A stretch of DNA of 64,000 nucleotides from an uncultured Erythrobacter sp. (GTDB lineage Bacteria; Pseudomonadota; Alphaproteobacteria; Sphingomonadales; Sphingomonadaceae), in assembly GCA_913055155.1 (NCBI GenBank), contig CAJXJR010000005.1:62001-126000 (forward strand), read 5' to 3'. Both the position numbers and the translations under genes were made by a program. Below are positions 225-62,600 of this stretch, one piece after another (position 1 is the stretch's first letter; each line of letters begins with the position of its first letter). The notes beneath the pieces are model-generated. The model was not told where the DNA came from. It was given only the letters and a program-made list of their open reading frames with translations, and did not search any database.

Positions 225-632
225 ATGACCAAGATCACCAGCGCTATCATCGCCAGCGCCGCCGCGCTTGCCCTCACCGCTTGTGGCGGCATCAACATCG
301 CGCGCGAGCGGCCGGACGAGTTCGCCGTGCAGCGCCAGGCACCGCTGGTGATCCCGCCCGATTTCCACCTTGTCCCGCCTGCACCCGGCGCCCCGCGCCC
401 GGCCGAAGGCACCGCCTCGCAGCAGGCGCTGGAAGCCCTGTTCGGCGGCAGCGCCCCGCGCAGCGATATCGAGACCAGCGCGCTCGACCAGGCCGGCGAC
501 GCCGCCCCGGGCATCCGTTCGGCCATCGGCGATGCGCAGACCTATACCGTGGACAAGGGCACCGCGACGCAGGCGATCATCGCTGCGCCGGAAGGTGACG
601 GCCAGGCCGCGCGCGTGGTCATTCCCGGTTGA
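225..632 (+). CDS. DUF3035 family putative lipoprotein
   Basis: A 135-residue exported protein of unknown function. The N-terminus MTKITSAIIASAAALALTAC is a lipoprotein signal peptide with lipobox LTAC|G, so the mature protein would start at Cys20. The PDEF...PPDF..PPP core is typical of DUF3035, a family often found next to lspA in alphaproteobacteria. The reading frame is open further upstream, but ATG 225 is chosen because it begins the signal peptide and has GGAGAA about nine bases before it. The stop codon lies in the loop of a strong hairpin (613-650) that looks like the terminator. No enzymatic residues are visible. Confidence 0.85.
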   Translation: MTKITSAIIASAAALALTACGGINIARERPDEFAVQRQAPLVIPPDFHLVPPAPGAPRPAEGTASQQALEALFGGSAPRSDIETSALDQAGDAAPGIRSAIGDAQTYTVDKGTATQAIIAAPEGDGQAARVVIPG

Positions 633-662
633 GACCGGGAATAACCACGCTTCATTTGTTTT
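613..662 (+). terminator. Rho-independent terminator with stop codon in the loop
   Basis: The arms 613-629 and 634-650 pair over 16 of 17 positions (GCGTGGT-C-ATTCCCGGT against ACCGGGAAT-A-ACCACGC) and close a TGAG loop. That loop holds the TGA stop of the DUF3035 gene. A T-rich tail (TTCATTTGTTTT) follows at 651-662. It would end the lspA-DUF3035 transcript and overlaps the left edge of the repeat element that follows. Confidence 0.7.
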
Positions 663-1020
663 AGTCCCTCAAGCGCCGGGCGCAGCGCGTCCGCGCTGCT
701 TGGCTTTCGGCCTACCGGCCGGCCCGCAGTCGCGGGCTGTCGGTCGCTTGTCGCGACCGAGACTTTCGCAAAACTCCAATGAATGCGCTGAAAACGGTCG
801 GCGCCTAGCCGATCGCAAGGGCGAACGGCCGCCCATAGTAACAGGCTGTCGTCGCCTTTCAGGCGCCGATACTTGCGCGAATTTCGAATTGGCGCGCTAT
901 TCTCGGTCGCGACCAGCGACCGACCGAGCGCGAACGCGCGAGCCGCAGGTGCCGCGCAGTCCGAAGGACGGAGCGAATAGCACCGAGGACGCACCCACGG
1001 AGGTGGGCGCATGAAACAAA
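655..1020. repeat. Hairpin-rich intergenic element, copy A
   Basis: This fills the convergent gap between the DUF3035 gene and the CNNM/CorC gene. It resembles the gap at 3147-3440: 901-991 matches 3312-3410 almost base for base, apart from an extra CGACCGAC in the second copy, and the 5' ends (CCCTCA[AG]GCGCCGGGCG) also match. It is a series of small hairpins at 682-699, 709-720 (loop TACC), 722-737, 904-922 (loop GACCA), 959-969 (loop GAA) and 994-1007 (loop GGAG). TTTGTTT at 655-661 and AAACAAA at 1014-1020 are inverted terminal motifs. Open frames crossing it look like shadows. Function unknown. Confidence 0.75.
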
Positions 1021-2313
1021 CTATTCCCGGCTCACCAGCAATTTATCGATCTTGCGGCCGTCCATGTCGACCACCTCGAACCGCCAGCCCTGGTCGTGGA
1101 AGTGTTCACCCTCCGCAGGCAGGTGCTTGAGCACGAACAGCGCGTAACCGGCGGCGGTCGCGAATTCCTTGTTCTCGGGGAAGTCGATATCCAGCCGCTC
1201 GGCCAGGGCATCGGCGGCCAGCGCGCCGGAGACGAGGAAGCTGCCATCCTCGCGCTCGGTGAACATCGGCGTATCGCCTTCGTCCTGGTGGCTGGCGAAG
1301 TCCCCGGCGATGGCAGAGAGCAGGTCTGCCGTCGTCACGATGCCGTCGAGGTGGCCGTACTCGTCGTGCACCATGGCCATGCCGGTGCCCGATTGCTGCA
1401 GCACCCGCAACGCGTCCATCGCATCGAGCTGGTCGGGCAGCACCTCGCTCTTGCGAATCAGGTCGGCCAGCACCACCGGCTGCCCGCCCACCAGCAGTGC
1501 CAGCACTTCGCGCACCTTCACCACGCCCAGCACCTTGTCGGGCGAGCTTTCTGCCACCGGCAGCAGCGAGTGCGGGGATGCCGCGATGGTGGCGCGGATC
1601 TGCTCCTCGTCGGCATCCGCGTCCAGCCAGTCCACCTCGGTACGCGGTGTCATCAGTTCGCGCACCGGCCTGTCGGCCAGCCGCATGATGCCGGAAAGGA
1701 TGGCGCGCTCCTGCTCCTCGATCACGCCGGTGCGCGTGGCATCGGCGAAGATCATCTGCAGTTCCTCCGCCGTCAGGCGATGGTCGCCCTTGTTGCGGAT
1801 GCCCATCGCCGACAGCAGCAGGCTGGACGAAGCATCGAGCAGCCACACGAACGGTGCCGCCACCCTGGCCAGCAGCGCCATGGGCCGCGCCATGACGATG
1901 GAAATCGGCGTTGCCGCGCGCAAGGCCAGTTGCTTGGGCACCAGTTCGCCCACCACCAGGCTGAAGAACGTGGTGAGGCCGATGACCAGCGTGAAACCGA
2001 GGTTGTAGGCCGTGCCCTCATCCATACCCAGCGCCGCCAGCCGTTCGCCCACTGGCTCGCCCAGGGTCGCCCCCGAGACCGCACCGGCAATGATGCCGAT
2101 CAGGGTGATGCCGATCTGCACGGTGGAGAGGAACTTGCCCGGATCGGCAGCCAGCGCCATCGCGACTTCGGCGCTCTTGCTGCCTTTTTCGGCCGCCATC
2201 CGCAGGCGCGCGGTGCGGGCAGAGACGATCGCCAGCTCGGACATGGCAAAGACGCCGTTGAGCACGATCAGGAATGCGAGCGCGGCGAGGTAATGCCAGG
2301 GAAACGGGCTCAT
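1021..2313 (-). CDS. CNNM/CorC-family transmembrane protein (hemolysin-related)
   Basis: A 430-residue inner-membrane protein of the CNNM/CorC family, which is linked to Mg2+/Co2+ transport or resistance. Domains in order are an N-terminal DUF21 transmembrane module (residues ~1-190, with SELAIVSAR and VGELVPKQLALR), two CBS domains (~205-330, beginning near MTPRTEVDWLDA) and a C-terminal CorC_HlyC domain (~350-425). The frame extends 18 codons upstream, but ATG 2313 (MSPFPWHYLAAL) sits at the first membrane helix and has GGAA upstream. It ends at the edge of repeat copy A and converges with the DUF3035 gene. Transport substrate is not predictable. Confidence 0.85.
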   Translation of the reverse strand: MSPFPWHYLAALAFLIVLNGVFAMSELAIVSARTARLRMAAEKGSKSAEVAMALAADPGKFLSTVQIGITLIGIIAGAVSGATLGEPVGERLAALGMDEGTAYNLGFTLVIGLTTFFSLVVGELVPKQLALRAATPISIVMARPMALLARVAAPFVWLLDASSSLLLSAMGIRNKGDHRLTAEELQMIFADATRTGVIEEQERAILSGIMRLADRPVRELMTPRTEVDWLDADADEEQIRATIAASPHSLLPVAESSPDKVLGVVKVREVLALLVGGQPVVLADLIRKSEVLPDQLDAMDALRVLQQSGTGMAMVHDEYGHLDGIVTTADLLSAIAGDFASHQDEGDTPMFTEREDGSFLVSGALAADALAERLDIDFPENKEFATAAGYALFVLKHLPAEGEHFHDQGWRFEVVDMDGRKIDKLLVSRE

Positions 2314-2462
2314 CAGGATTCCGGCGCTAGCAGGTTTCTCAGCGCCCGCAAAAGCCCTTGCAAGCATCCATTCACGGAACAGCCTTCACAAACCGGCGTT
2401 TAAAGGTTCAGATAGTGCGGCGCAGGCCTTGCGGGCCGGTGCCTATTCGGAGGAAGGACGTT

Positions 2463-3146
2463 ATGAAAATCAAGAAGATGCTTGTCTCGACGACAGCCGC
2501 GGTCGCCCTGGTCGGCACCACCAGCGCCTGTGTCACCGACCCCAACACCGGCGAGCAACACATTTCGCGCACCGCCATCGGCGGTATTGGCGGGGCGGGC
2601 CTTGGCTACCTGCTGGGCGGCCTCGTGGGCGGCAAGACCGCGCGCATCGTGGGGGCAGGCATCGGTGCGGCAGCCGGCGGCTATGTCGGCTATCGCATGG
2701 ACGAGCAGATTCGCGAGCTCGACGAGGTTACGGCGGGCACCGGGGTAGAGGTTTCCGAGACGCCCAACGGCGACGGTATCCTGGTGAACTTCCCGGATGT
2801 CACCTTCGCGGTGAACTCCACCACGATCTCGCCCATGATGCGCGATACGCTGGACGGCGTGGCACAATCGATGATCGACTATCCCAACTCGCTGATCGAC
2901 GTAATGGGCCACACCGATTCGACCGGCAGCGAGCAGTACAACCTCGACCTGTCGCGTCGCCGCGCCGAATCGGTCGCCAACTACCTCGTCTCGCGTGGCG
3001 TCTCGCGCGCGCGCATCGAGACCATCGGCTATGGCGAGCAGTACCCGATCGCGGACAATTCCACCGAAGCAGGCCGGTCACAGAACCGCCGCGTGGAAAT
3101 CCGCATCACGCCGATTACCGAAGAGGACGTGGAAGCGGCTTATTGA
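2463..3146 (+). CDS. OmpA-family lipoprotein with glycine-zipper segment
   Basis: A 227-residue outer-membrane-associated protein that should bind peptidoglycan. It has a signal peptide with lipobox TSAC|V (Cys near 22), then a Gly-rich zipper (GGIGGAGLGYLLGGLVGG, ~40-75), then a C-terminal OmpA/MotB domain (~110-220). The domain shows the NPNS-like loop, VMGHTDSTGS and LSRRRAESVANYL followed by GYGEQYPIADNSTEAGRSQNRRVEI, including the conserved Asp and Arg that contact diaminopimelate. ATG 2463 has an excellent GGAGGAAGG ribosome site. It is an orphan gene, and repeat copy B starts right after its stop. Confidence 0.9.
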   Translation: MKIKKMLVSTTAAVALVGTTSACVTDPNTGEQHISRTAIGGIGGAGLGYLLGGLVGGKTARIVGAGIGAAAGGYVGYRMDEQIRELDEVTAGTGVEVSETPNGDGILVNFPDVTFAVNSTTISPMMRDTLDGVAQSMIDYPNSLIDVMGHTDSTGSEQYNLDLSRRRAESVANYLVSRGVSRARIETIGYGEQYPIADNSTEAGRSQNRRVEIRITPITEEDVEAAY

Positions 3147-3440
3147 TTTAGGCCCTCAGGCGCCGGGCGGACACCGTCCGGCGTCCTTGGCTACGCCCTA
3201 CCGGGCGGCGCGCGTTGGTGCGCGGTGGCCTATGGCCATCTTCGGCTACGCCTTCGGTTCCGTCGCCTTTCAGGCGCCGATCCTGGTACTTCGCTGCGAT
3301 GGAAGTTCTGGTCTCGGTCGCGACTAGCGACCGACCGACCGACCGAGCGCGAATGCGCGAGCCGCACGTGCCGCGCAGTCCGAAGGACGGAGCGAATAGC
3401 ACCGAGGACGAAGCCGCGGAGGCGGCTTCGCAAACAAACA
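3147..3440. repeat. Hairpin-rich intergenic element, copy B
   Basis: This fills the convergent gap between the OmpA-like gene and the CysQ-like gene. It shares the 5' motif, the CCTTTCAGGCGCCGA block (3267-3281) and the long 3' block (3312-3410) with copy A at 655-1020. Hairpins are at 3161-3183 (10 bp, one G-U, loop ACA), 3195-3206 (loop TACC), 3209-3224, 3315-3333 (loop GACTA), 3378-3388 (loop GAA) and 3409-3430 (9 bp, loop GGAG). Three loops equal those of copy A exactly, and some stems differ in both arms. I see no credible gene inside it. Confidence 0.75.
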
Positions 3441-3443
3441 AGC

Positions 3444-4241
3444 CTACCCGTTCCCAACCAACCGCCTGGCGCGCTCGCCAAGGCGCTCCACCGCTGCGCT
3501 GTGGATCGCTGGCGCGCTGACCAGCAAGCCAAAGGCGCGGGGGTCGCGCTTGTTGTAGGCCAGCGGCTGGCCGAAGGCGTCGGTCACTGCAGCACCCGCC
3601 TCGCGCGCAATCAGCGCGGCAGCGGCGATATCCCACTCGAAACCCCAGCGCACTGTCGCCACCAGGTCTGCCCTGTCATCGGCCACCATGGCCACGCGCA
3701 AGGCAATGGAATTGGGCTGCTCCACCTTGGTCAGGTCCCGGTCTTCCTTCGGCAGGTCGTGCACGGGCACGCGGGCGCCGGTGAATTCCTGCCGCGTGCT
3801 GGCCTTGAGCCGCTGGCCGTTCAACCATGCGCCACGCCCTGCCACCGCCGTCCACACTTCTTCGCGCGCCGGCGCCACCAGAGAACCGATCAGCGGCCTG
3901 CCTGCAGAGATCAGCGCGACGGAGACTGCCCAGCCCTTGCGCCCGCGAATATAGTCGCGCGTGCCGTCGATCGGGTCGACCAGCCAGATCAGCCCCTTGT
4001 CGAGTCGCTCTTCGCTATCGGCGGTTTCTTCGGACAGCCAGCCCGCCGCCGGCAGCAGCAGGCCCAGTTCGCGGCGCAGGAAATTGTCGACTTCCAGATC
4101 GGCCTCGCACACCGGGCTGCCGGGGGTTTTCTCCCAGCTTTCAAGCGCATGGCCGCCGCCATTGGGGTCTCCGGGCCACTTTCGAAGCGCCATATGACCC
4201 GCCTCGCGGCAGATCTGTTCAAGTTTCATACTGTCGATCAT
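3444..4241 (-). CDS. Inositol-monophosphatase superfamily, CysQ-like 3'(2'),5'-bisphosphate nucleotidase
   Basis: A 265-residue Mg2+-dependent phosphatase of the IMPase fold. The metal site is visible as SEE (near residue 70), WLVDPIDGTRDYIRG (near 87) and, later, EWDIAAAALIAREAGA (near 205), all in the family order. CysQ hydrolyses 3'-phosphoadenosine 5'-phosphate from sulfate assimilation; a histidinol- or inositol-phosphatase role cannot be excluded by sequence alone. The frame runs upstream to 4334, but ATG 4241 (MIDSMKLEQICREAG) begins the conserved fold; ATG 4229 is an alternative. It is divergent from sucC, with which it shares a 119-base upstream region. Confidence 0.82.
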   Translation of the reverse strand: MIDSMKLEQICREAGHMALRKWPGDPNGGGHALESWEKTPGSPVCEADLEVDNFLRRELGLLLPAAGWLSEETADSEERLDKGLIWLVDPIDGTRDYIRGRKGWAVSVALISAGRPLIGSLVAPAREEVWTAVAGRGAWLNGQRLKASTRQEFTGARVPVHDLPKEDRDLTKVEQPNSIALRVAMVADDRADLVATVRWGFEWDIAAAALIAREAGAAVTDAFGQPLAYNKRDPRAFGLLVSAPAIHSAAVERLGERARRLVGNG

Positions 4242-29249: not shown

Positions 29250-29400
29250 CTATCGGCCCGCGACTAGCGGACCGCAAGGCCGAATGGCCGCCCCCTTTCG
29301 GCTGCCTGCCAAGGCAGGCGCTCAGGATAAGCTGCGCGGGCGCAGCTTGCCCGCGCGTCCAGCAAGGACGAACGCGCGCAAGGCGCGTTCGAAAAGCAAA
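29250..29400. repeat. Five tandem hairpins between rsfS and rlmH, element C
   Basis: The 161-base spacer between two co-directional genes holds five perfect stems: 29278-29289 (GGCC, loop GAAT), 29304-29319 (7 bp, loop AA), 29329-29348 (9 bp, loop GG), 29357-29369 (GTCC, loop AGCAA) and 29371-29389 (7 bp, loop GCAAG). Segments match copies A and B: GCGACTAGCG, the CGCAAGG[CG]CGAA[CT]GGCCGCCC block of copy A, and on the minus strand the TTCGTCCT...GGACNGCGCGG order. It looks like a shorter mosaic member of the same family. Confidence 0.65.
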
Positions 29401-61772: not shown

Positions 61773-62600
61773 ATGGAAGACCAAGCCGAACTCCTCGCCC
61801 GCATTGCTGCCGCGCTGGAACAGCTGGCGCCGGGCACACGCACAGGTGCCGACTGGCGCGCCAGCCCTGCCTATGTCTGGAATACCAGCGGCGCGCGCGC
61901 GGTGGCAGCGATCGATGCGCCTGCACTCAGCCTGCTACGCGGAATCGACAAGCAGAAGCACGCCGTCACCGGCAACGTCGCGCGGCTGGCGCAAGGCCTG
62001 CCCGCGCACGACATGCTGCTGTGGGGCGCGCGCGGCATGGGCAAGTCTGCATTGCTGCGCGCATCGGTGGCCGATGCCCAGGCGAGCGGAGGCGAGCTGG
62101 CACTGGTGCAGGTCGCAACGGACGCGGTGGCCTCGCTGCCCGCGCTGTTCGGCGATCTCGCAAGGGCAGAACGCAACTTTCTGGTGTTCATCGACGACCT
62201 GGGCTTTGCCGAAGGCGATTCCACCACCCCGCGCCACTTGCGCAGCTGGCTGGATGGCGGTGTCGAGGCGCGTCCGGCCAACGTGCGTCTTGCCGTCACG
62301 TCGAACCGCCGCGCGATCCTGCCGCGCCACGGCAGCGAGCAGGACGACCCGATCAACCCGCGCGACGCGGTGGACGACAACCTTGCCCTGGCAGACCGGT
62401 TCGGCCTGTCACTGGGGTTCCACAACGCCAGCCAGGACGATTACCTCGAAATCCTGCGCGGTTATGCCGCCGAGTACGAGCTGACGCTCGACGAAGCCGA
62501 AGCGCTGGAATGGGCCAAGCGGCGCGGCGCACGCTCGGGCCGCGTGGCCTGGCATTTCATCACCGAACTGGCCGGCCGCGCGGGAAAACCGCTCGGCTAA
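61773..62600 (+). CDS. DUF815-family P-loop ATPase
   Basis: A 275-residue AAA-like ATP-binding protein. Walker A is LLWGARGMGKSALLRAS (~84-100), Walker B FLVFIDDLGFAEGD (~135), then a sensor-like VTSNRRAILPRH and a C-terminal arginine-rich part. The family typically carries the leading helix DKQKHAVTGNVARLAQGLPAHDML. Function is unproven. It is divergent from the Sua5 gene and convergent with the sorbosone dehydrogenase gene four bases downstream. Confidence 0.85.
   Translation: MEDQAELLARIAAALEQLAPGTRTGADWRASPAYVWNTSGARAVAAIDAPALSLLRGIDKQKHAVTGNVARLAQGLPAHDMLLWGARGMGKSALLRASVADAQASGGELALVQVATDAVASLPALFGDLARAERNFLVFIDDLGFAEGDSTTPRHLRSWLDGGVEARPANVRLAVTSNRRAILPRHGSEQDDPINPRDAVDDNLALADRFGLSLGFHNASQDDYLEILRGYAAEYELTLDEAEALEWAKRRGARSGRVAWHFITELAGRAGKPLG

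Follow-up and report, generated by a model that had tools for sequence, protein, structure and literature searches.

The 64,000-nucleotide window analyzed here (the whole stretch, positions 62,001 to 126,000 of contig CAJXJR010000005.1 from an uncultured Erythrobacter sp.) carries two intergenic elements, A (655..1020) and B (3147..3440), which are members of a multi-copy family of paired hairpin units. The loops and junctions of these units are nearly fixed, their stems are near-perfect and variable, and the two units of a pair are nearly always of unlike type. Placement is intergenic and avoids divergent gaps, and the stem of the first hairpin (H1) differs wholesale between some orthologous copies. 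We lean toward reading the family as composite palindromic repeats like REPINs (doublets of repetitive extragenic palindromic, REP, sequences that can form hairpins) and BIMEs (bacterial interspersed mosaic elements), in which two unlike hairpin units (X, Y1 or Y2) enclose a short spacer.

The family and its distribution

A sequence-only reading of the window had described A and B as copies related by long blocks, between which hairpin loops are kept while the stems differ. The relationship is borne out by 92.7% identity over 96 bases (A 909-1003 against B 3327-3422) and by 79% identity over 73 bases at the left ends. The hairpins quoted are likewise in place, with loops kept and stems differing: a TACC-loop hairpin (CGGCC-TACC-GGCCG at A 708-721; CGCCC-TACC-GGGCG at B 3194-3207), a GGAG-loop hairpin (A 991-1010; B 3410-3429), and the stem before the TTGGCT motif, immediately preceding CTTGGCT (A 683-698; B 3170-3185, with one A.C mismatch in B). 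A lack of further copies had been named as evidence against a family. Instead, A as a blastn query (E<=1e-3) returned 49 pieces from its own genome (3.10 Mb, 21 contigs), many of them overlapping or inverted, which fall by manual grouping into about 21-25 places.

The copies inspected are hairpin mosaics between T-rich and A-rich tips, with three kinds of end unit (X, Y1 and Y2), all facing inward. Every unit opens with a T-rich leader followed by H1, whose loop is NTCC or TCC (GGAN on the opposite strand). The X unit consists of CCCTCAAGCGCCGGGCG, H1, and CTTGGCT, then hairpins H2, H3, and H4; in the Y1 unit H1 is followed by GTCCTCGGTGCTATTC, and in the Y2 unit by GTCCTCGCTAGACGCG. Units are multi-hairpin and about 100-180 bases long. 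Models of H1 were used for X (R1), Y1 (R2), and Y2 (R3), and the own genome contains 16 strong X matches, 16 full-length Y1 matches, and 22 strong Y2 matches, besides weaker or partial ones. Most copies inspected have T/A-rich tips of the form TTTGTTT...AAACAAA, with heterotypic inner ends. The central spacers of the own copies look unrelated by eye, and the first spacer of A, the only one searched (with a guide or repeat in mind), has no second genomic copy at <=3 mismatches. The features in the window are as follows.

655..1020, + strand: element A, an X unit facing a Y1 unit head to head, between which pieces of a second dimer remain
655..665, + strand: A, T-rich leader of the X unit (TTTGTTTTAGT)
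666..705, + strand: A, X unit (5' flank 666-682, H1 683-698, 3' flank 699-705); R1 match
708..760, + strand: A, inner hairpins of the X unit (H2 708-721, loop TACC; H3 721-738, loop AGTC; H4 740-760)
768..794, + strand: A, first copy-specific spacer, a single genomic occurrence at <=3 mismatches
795..869, + strand: A, mosaic remnant, Y2-unit-like at 795-830 and X-type-H4-like at 848-869, by inspection
870..900, + strand: A, second copy-specific spacer
901..1011, - strand: A, Y1 unit facing inward (H4 901-923, H3 928-939, flank 975-991, H1 991-1010, GGAG on the + strand); R2 match at 971-1011
1011..1020, - strand: A, A-rich end (ATGAAACAAA), which is the T-rich Y1 leader on the minus strand
3147..3440, + strand: element B, an X unit and a Y1 unit head to head
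3153..3192, + strand: B, X unit (5' flank 3153-3169, H1 3170-3185 with one A.C mismatch, 3' flank 3186-3192); R1 match
3194..3280, + strand: B, inner hairpins of the X unit (H2 3194-3207, loop TACC; H3 3208-3224; H4 3262-3280)
3281..3311, + strand: B, central spacer
3312..3430, - strand: B, Y1 unit (H4 3312-3334, H3 3347-3358, flank 3394-3410, H1 3410-3429, GGAG on the + strand); R2 match at 3390-3430
3430..3442, - strand: B, A-rich end (GCAAACAAACAAG)
29350..29391, - strand: third unit of the window, a single, partly diverged Y2 (R3 match; body to about 29253 by inspection)

Just before element A, a further hairpin (ATTCCCGGT-TGAG-ACCGGGAAT) lies at 617-640 over the stop codon of the upstream gene.

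Outside the own genome, A as a blastn query found matches in 24 of 25 same-genus genomes (own included) and in 1 of 16 genomes from other families of the order, with five untyped matches in G038, a member of another family. A pattern scan of public genomes gave at least 119 stretches, and among those listed are Azospirillum, Nitrospirillum, Niveispirillum, Roseomonas, Roseococcus, Magnetospirillum, Telmatospirillum, Nitratireductor, Sphingobium, Croceicoccus, and Erythrobacter. Within Alphaproteobacteria, R1 matched 45 of 385 genomes at E<=0.01 (29 at E<=1e-6), representing 35 of 276 genera in a patchy pattern; copy numbers in these multi-genome scans are lower bounds (best 17 matches per genome for the R1 class scan). 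R2 matched 18 of 147 genomes of the order, the range within which that search was kept, and all of them belong to the window's family. Among 299 genomes of the phylum, an unstated number of which lie outside the class, R1 gave 11 matches, all in the class. Tandem head-to-tail arrays of X with a period of about 90-110 bases were seen at four of the loci (L155:5381-5630, L128:280-407, L152:1772-2013, and L157:5632-5771), and in one genome (G215) X units also occur on large plasmids, one of them between two tryptophan halogenase genes.

Stem structure and stem turnover

The family is far beyond chance: a relaxed X scan with pairing required gave 157 matches in the 119 listed loci, and a single match when those loci were read backwards. 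The H1 stems are near-perfect yet hypervariable, while loops and junctions are nearly fixed. When X rows were located through their fixed flanks alone, 113 of 127 had at least 4 consecutive pairs from the outside in, with 66 distinct stem strings; the remaining loop was ATCC in 53 rows, TCC in 25, TC in 14, and CTCC in 7, the others being scattered. Similarly, at distinct Y sites located through the conserved flank, with pairing not required, at least 7 of 8 stem pairs form in 64/69 (Y1) and 66/71 (Y2), and 120 of the 131 flank-found Y sites with at least 6 pairs carry CTCC or ATCC as the loop. Stem length is also constant, as 88 of 95 distinct Y hairpins (GGA loop required) are exactly 8 bp long, with 54 distinct stems among them.

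Covariation was measured in three alignments (A1-A3). Double-changed cells number 54 for X, 60 for Y1, and 73 for Y2, against 20, 15, and 22 after shuffling, and in every alignment both this count and a covariation score lie above all of the 500 shuffles. In A1-A3, neither the number of pairs changed on both sides nor that of further pair types, both of them cruder measures, stands out from the shuffles. Rows entered A2 and A3 only with 7 of 8 pairs, a condition from which the flank-only set of Y sites is free. The first stem pair is G-C in 30/30 rows of A2 and of A3, and the second is C-G, A-T, or T-A. A three-way junction (TCAAG/CTTGG with CGC/GCG) is conceivable in the flank of X; its invariance in A1 reflects letters fixed by the search pattern, and a looser, noisy scan of 534 sequences gave no clear compensation.

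Stem turnover could be followed in the sister species G010 and G012, in which 11 orthologous loci were aligned (flanks 85-97% identical). The comparison comprises 13 orthologous Y-type H1 units, 12 by script (one in-gene row dropped) and one (L346/L355) read from the alignment; X-type hairpins stand outside this count, and the alignments read by eye cover the loci other than L352/L361. In four of the 13, both arms of the stem have changed wholesale around a loop that is CTCC in each species (GAAAGCGC/GCACCTGC, GATTGCGC/GCTCCGAC, GCTCCGAC/GAACCCGC, and GCACCTGC/GAAGCCGC). The letters changed are 6-8 of 16 in the three scripted cases and 10, counted by hand, in the fourth. In the other nine units, the stem is unchanged (5) or altered by a single letter on one side (4), and none of the 13 shows an H1 pair compensated step by step. 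Each of the three scripted swaps has at least one stem that is also present in other copies. The inner neighbor is nearly unchanged in the swaps at L342/L347 and L354/L345 (0 and 1 letters changed among the 22 that follow). In the X-type hairpin of L346/L355, the stem is identical and one loop letter has changed.

These data qualify the view, taken in the sequence-only reading, that change on both arms around a conserved loop is what selection for structure would give. The covariation beyond all shuffles in three alignments upholds its structural part; that two-arm change shows pair-by-pair selection, on the other hand, is not supported, with stems replaced whole and none compensated stepwise. 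Because four of 13 stems were swapped wholesale and the others show at most one one-sided change, the exchange of ready-made hairpins is probably the nearer cause of two-arm change. In view of whole-stem replacement in sister species, a conserved loop with both arms changed is by itself no proof of pair-by-pair compensation.

Partner choice and gene context

The own genome contains 20 head-to-head dimers, namely nine X-Y1, six X-Y2, and five Y1-Y2, one alternative pairing (C5:170051) having been taken out before the count. None is homotypic, against 6.4 expected under random pairing (P=4e-4). The distance between the two H1 hairpins is 81-266 bases overall and 147-198 in 18 of the 20, and 13 further units stand single. 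Of the 23 typed dimers in relatives, 2 are homotypic against 8.5 expected (P=0.0017), and one of these two (L033) is by inspection a nested Y1-X plus Y1; this sample was drawn from loci similar to A or at the A or B site, is no unbiased census, and omits one dimer with an untyped end. Heterotypic pairing is thus a near-rule, nearly always observed. In other genera X pairs with X: 13 such dimers have their H1 hairpins 118-176 bases apart, and five wider inward X pairs were noted as candidates for an autonomous element enclosing a gene. By eye, 10 of these 13 have one CCTCGCATAAGCTCGGG-type H2 and one perfect-hairpin H2, and three are unclassifiable. A rule that the H1 stems themselves differ within a dimer was rejected: none of the relatives' 14 Y1-Y2 dimers has identical stems, but 2 of the 5 in the own genome do.

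Gene context was assigned with a home-made gene finder retrained on four confident window genes. Both copies had been said to fill convergent gaps, which holds for A and B, but of the 21 own sites examined only roughly half are convergent: by gene calls, 12 are convergent, 7 co-directional, and 2 divergent. Three own elements (L007, L023, and L026) adjoin tRNA-Gln, tRNA-Trp, and tRNA-Thr; with tRNA genes included these three become co-directional or probably so, and the own sites are then, by our reading, 11 convergent, 10 co-directional, and 0 divergent. An apparent tRNA gene was also seen, by eye, directly 5' of an X unit at L072:3321. For comparison, among gaps of 40 bases or more in the window, 3 are convergent, 24 co-directional, and 9 divergent. 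The 119 listed loci hold 106 single X units, 8 of them at locus edges; the 98 that could be placed lie in convergent gaps (32), co-directional gaps in sense (32) or antisense (28), and divergent gaps (6), whereas 354 unit-free gaps are 45 convergent, 199 co-directional, and 110 divergent. Single X units are therefore neutral in orientation, and divergent gaps are avoided. Among own single Y2 units, 8 of 11 are sense.

Occupancy of single sites varies between species. The A and B sites were compared in 30 of 40 same-genus genomes. At the A site, whose flanking genes we take to be lipoprotein-like and CorC-like, a unit is present in 16 of 28 defined gaps from the 30 loci, in X-Y, Y-Y, and reversed orders. 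At L356/L360, G012 has a single Y2 unit of some 60 bases that its sister species G010 lacks, with no obvious duplication, which makes this locus a candidate for reading an insertion junction.

Competing explanations and known palindromic repeats

A transposon-like origin, as miniature inverted-repeat transposable elements (MITEs) with two distinct, interchangeable ends (X, Y1, Y2) moved in trans by a hypothetical hairpin-reading recombinase, is possible, if on the unlikely side. It would fit the inward-facing T/A-rich tips of most inspected copies, the near-rule of heterotypic ends, the patchy spread through the class (45/385 genomes), and the gain or loss of a unit between sister species. On the other hand, neither a target duplication nor a clean empty site was found, single units are common, and one X query had no match in 50,697 phage records. 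The unrelated look of the own spacers and the uniqueness of A's first spacer also make the dimers unlike simple copies of each other. Mobilization by a Y1 transposase of the RAYT type (REP-associated tyrosine transposase) was considered and rejected for the own genome, where PF01797 has no match at E<=1e-5; matches are present in 6 of 20 X-bearing and 7 of 30 searched genomes.

The view of the sequence-only reading, that the units form a structured RNA, either a small RNA or a 3'-UTR element in sense, with pair-by-pair selection on the hairpins of the transcript, appears distinctly unlikely. The strong covariation in the X, Y1, and Y2 alignments speaks for it, as do units close behind stop codons and the hairpin plus T-run that follows some units elsewhere (L311, and the B site of G019 and G020). 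The A and B gaps themselves gave no hairpin plus T-run terminator in a scan of our own, and T-rich tracts precede H1. If one RNA strand were selected, G.T and A.C mismatches should differ in number. They are near-equal, with 11 G.T against 15 A.C in the flank-only Y sites and 9 against 14 in an X set conditioned on pairing, and together with the neutral orientation they give an RNA role no specific support. A Y set conditioned on pairing and on a GGA loop had given 14 G.T against 6 A.C in the GGAN orientation, which the flank-only set did not confirm. The replacement of some stems as wholes also argues against transcript-level compensation, and Rfam gave no match at gathering scores in the 64 kb and none at E<=5 in 600-3500. 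A sense 3'-UTR element in particular was rejected, as single X units in co-directional gaps have no orientation preference (32 sense, 28 antisense).

It is highly improbable that the hairpins are a mutational by-product, in which template switching corrects quasi-palindromes without structural selection, for although the stems are symmetric, strand-neutral, and near-perfect, their length is constant (8 bp in 88/95 Y hairpins), the loop is CTCC or ATCC in 120/131 flank-found paired sites, at least one stem of each scripted swap recurs in other copies, and the same flanks are found again across the class.

Under the preferred reading as composite palindromic repeats, the entity that is kept would be a DNA hairpin or cruciform, or a structure on either strand, and its recognition would depend on shape, loop, and junction, not on the sequence of the stem. 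We infer that stem diversity arises largely from exchange of hairpin cassettes between copies, by ectopic gene conversion or template switching, and that the copies now in place are either tolerated or put to use as hairpin insulators or terminators where genes converge or follow one another. Unlike partners may be favored because long, near-perfect palindromes are unstable.

Several observations weigh against this reading. No mobilizing enzyme was identified, and the own genome has no RAYT-type Y1 transposase. No clean empty site or target duplication could be read at the sites compared; at the A site, the unit-free gaps are 0-32 bases long in 8 of 12 species, and the sequences are too diverged for a junction to be read. 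Loops are not strictly fixed, as they differ by 1-3 letters in 4 of the 9 unswapped units. The L346/L355 swap also involves the leader and an inner hairpin, and at L348/L343 the difference covers a wider stretch; with a nearly unchanged inner neighbor in only 2 of 4 swaps, part of the turnover may be replacement of whole units. Some dimers have the same H1 stem in both partners, namely L012 and L014 among the 5 own Y1-Y2 dimers and, by eye, L088 and L110 among the 13 X-X dimers. Seven of the 11 own single Y2 units are sense and lie 7-14 bases past the stop codon, which would also fit a role in the transcript. The case for an insulator or terminator role is weak: at the B site, a canonical terminator is found in 0 of 3 full dimers against 10 of 15 unit-free gaps (one-sided Fisher test computed by hand, P ~0.07), and in 7 of 13 gaps with any unit.

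A bolder form of the proposal, which we regard as speculative and unlikely in its entirety, is a class-wide alphaproteobacterial DNA element kept by shape, in which a host protein would read the NTCC loop and fixed junction, two unlike units would be obligatory, stem cassettes would be passed on, and maintenance of the copies would fall to a replication or recombination system that reads structure and works without a Y1 transposase. The stems would then be exchangeable, nearly sequence-free parts.

Apart from this bolder form, the family suggests how palindromic repeats can hold their shape while losing sequence, and it offers class-wide hairpins in which cassette exchange and the avoidance of palindromes are measurable.

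In REPINs, or REP doublets, conserved ends in inverted orientation enclose a less conserved spacer whose length and capacity to form a hairpin matter, and compensatory changes are called common (Bertels and Rainey 2011, PMC3116915). The present family has the same layout. Spacer length is comparably held here, with own gaps of 147-198 bases in 18/20 dimers and X-X gaps of 118-176. In contrast to REPINs, there is no GTAG-tagged REP of 20-40 bp: no GTAG stands beside H1 in alignments A1-A3, the flanks being CCCTCAAGCGCCGGGCG/CTTGGCT and GTCCTCGG or GTCCTCGC. The ends here are instead multi-hairpin, with hypervariable H1 stems and mostly unlike partners. The BIMEs of E. coli are mosaics of alternating palindromic units; the mosaic build is alike, but sequence, size, and stem exchange differ here. 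Integron attC sites are recognized by their folded shape, with hypervariable paired stems and few fixed bases. Recognition by shape would give the pattern seen here, an analogy of pattern only. BIMEs are named in the accessible parts of PMC3733652 and PMC2817692.

The CGTC-tagged REPs of Alphaproteobacteria are a closer comparison in form. In the accessible parts of their description, family 1 has an 8-bp stem, a 4-base loop, and a predominance of homodimers (Di Nocera 2013, PMC3733652). The same parts describe head-to-head dimers near 3' ends, in convergent or co-directional gaps and without a dedicated transposase; the tag is CGTC (or TGTC/CCTC), stems are 8-9 bp long with A-T almost invariably in the first and second pair, and 'E. 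lithoralis' is named among hosts of intragenic REPs (PMC3733652). A preference for heterodimers is mentioned there with 'no obvious explanation' (PMC3733652), and the present family turns it into a countable near-rule. The 8-bp stem, 4-base loop, head-to-head dimers, placement in gaps, and lack of a dedicated transposase are shared, as far as that description extends; the invariant first G-C pair, the loop NTCC, and the longer units differ, in a comparison made by description. The RepRanger table, in the part available, lists 3,055 REPs in Erythrobacter cryptus (PMC12306157), and palindromic repeats in the taxonomic family of the window have accordingly been counted before. In the open-licence main-text literature, no description of the present family was found by sequence or topic. 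The family works like REPINs and BIMEs; it was not filed under either published REP super-family, GTAG or CGTC, because it has no GTAG tag, the genome has no Y1 transposase, and the stems do not start with A-T.

At one locus of the own genome (L303, G000:C7:61807), a sequence resembling a CGTC-type REP (CGTCACCCCGGACTTGATCCGGGGCCCA) lies about 130 bases downstream of the H1 of a single Y2 unit, and a similar CCCCGGACTTGATCCGGGG-type hairpin occupies an inner hairpin slot in L003, L004, L012, and L016, as though REP hairpins had been taken up as cassettes.

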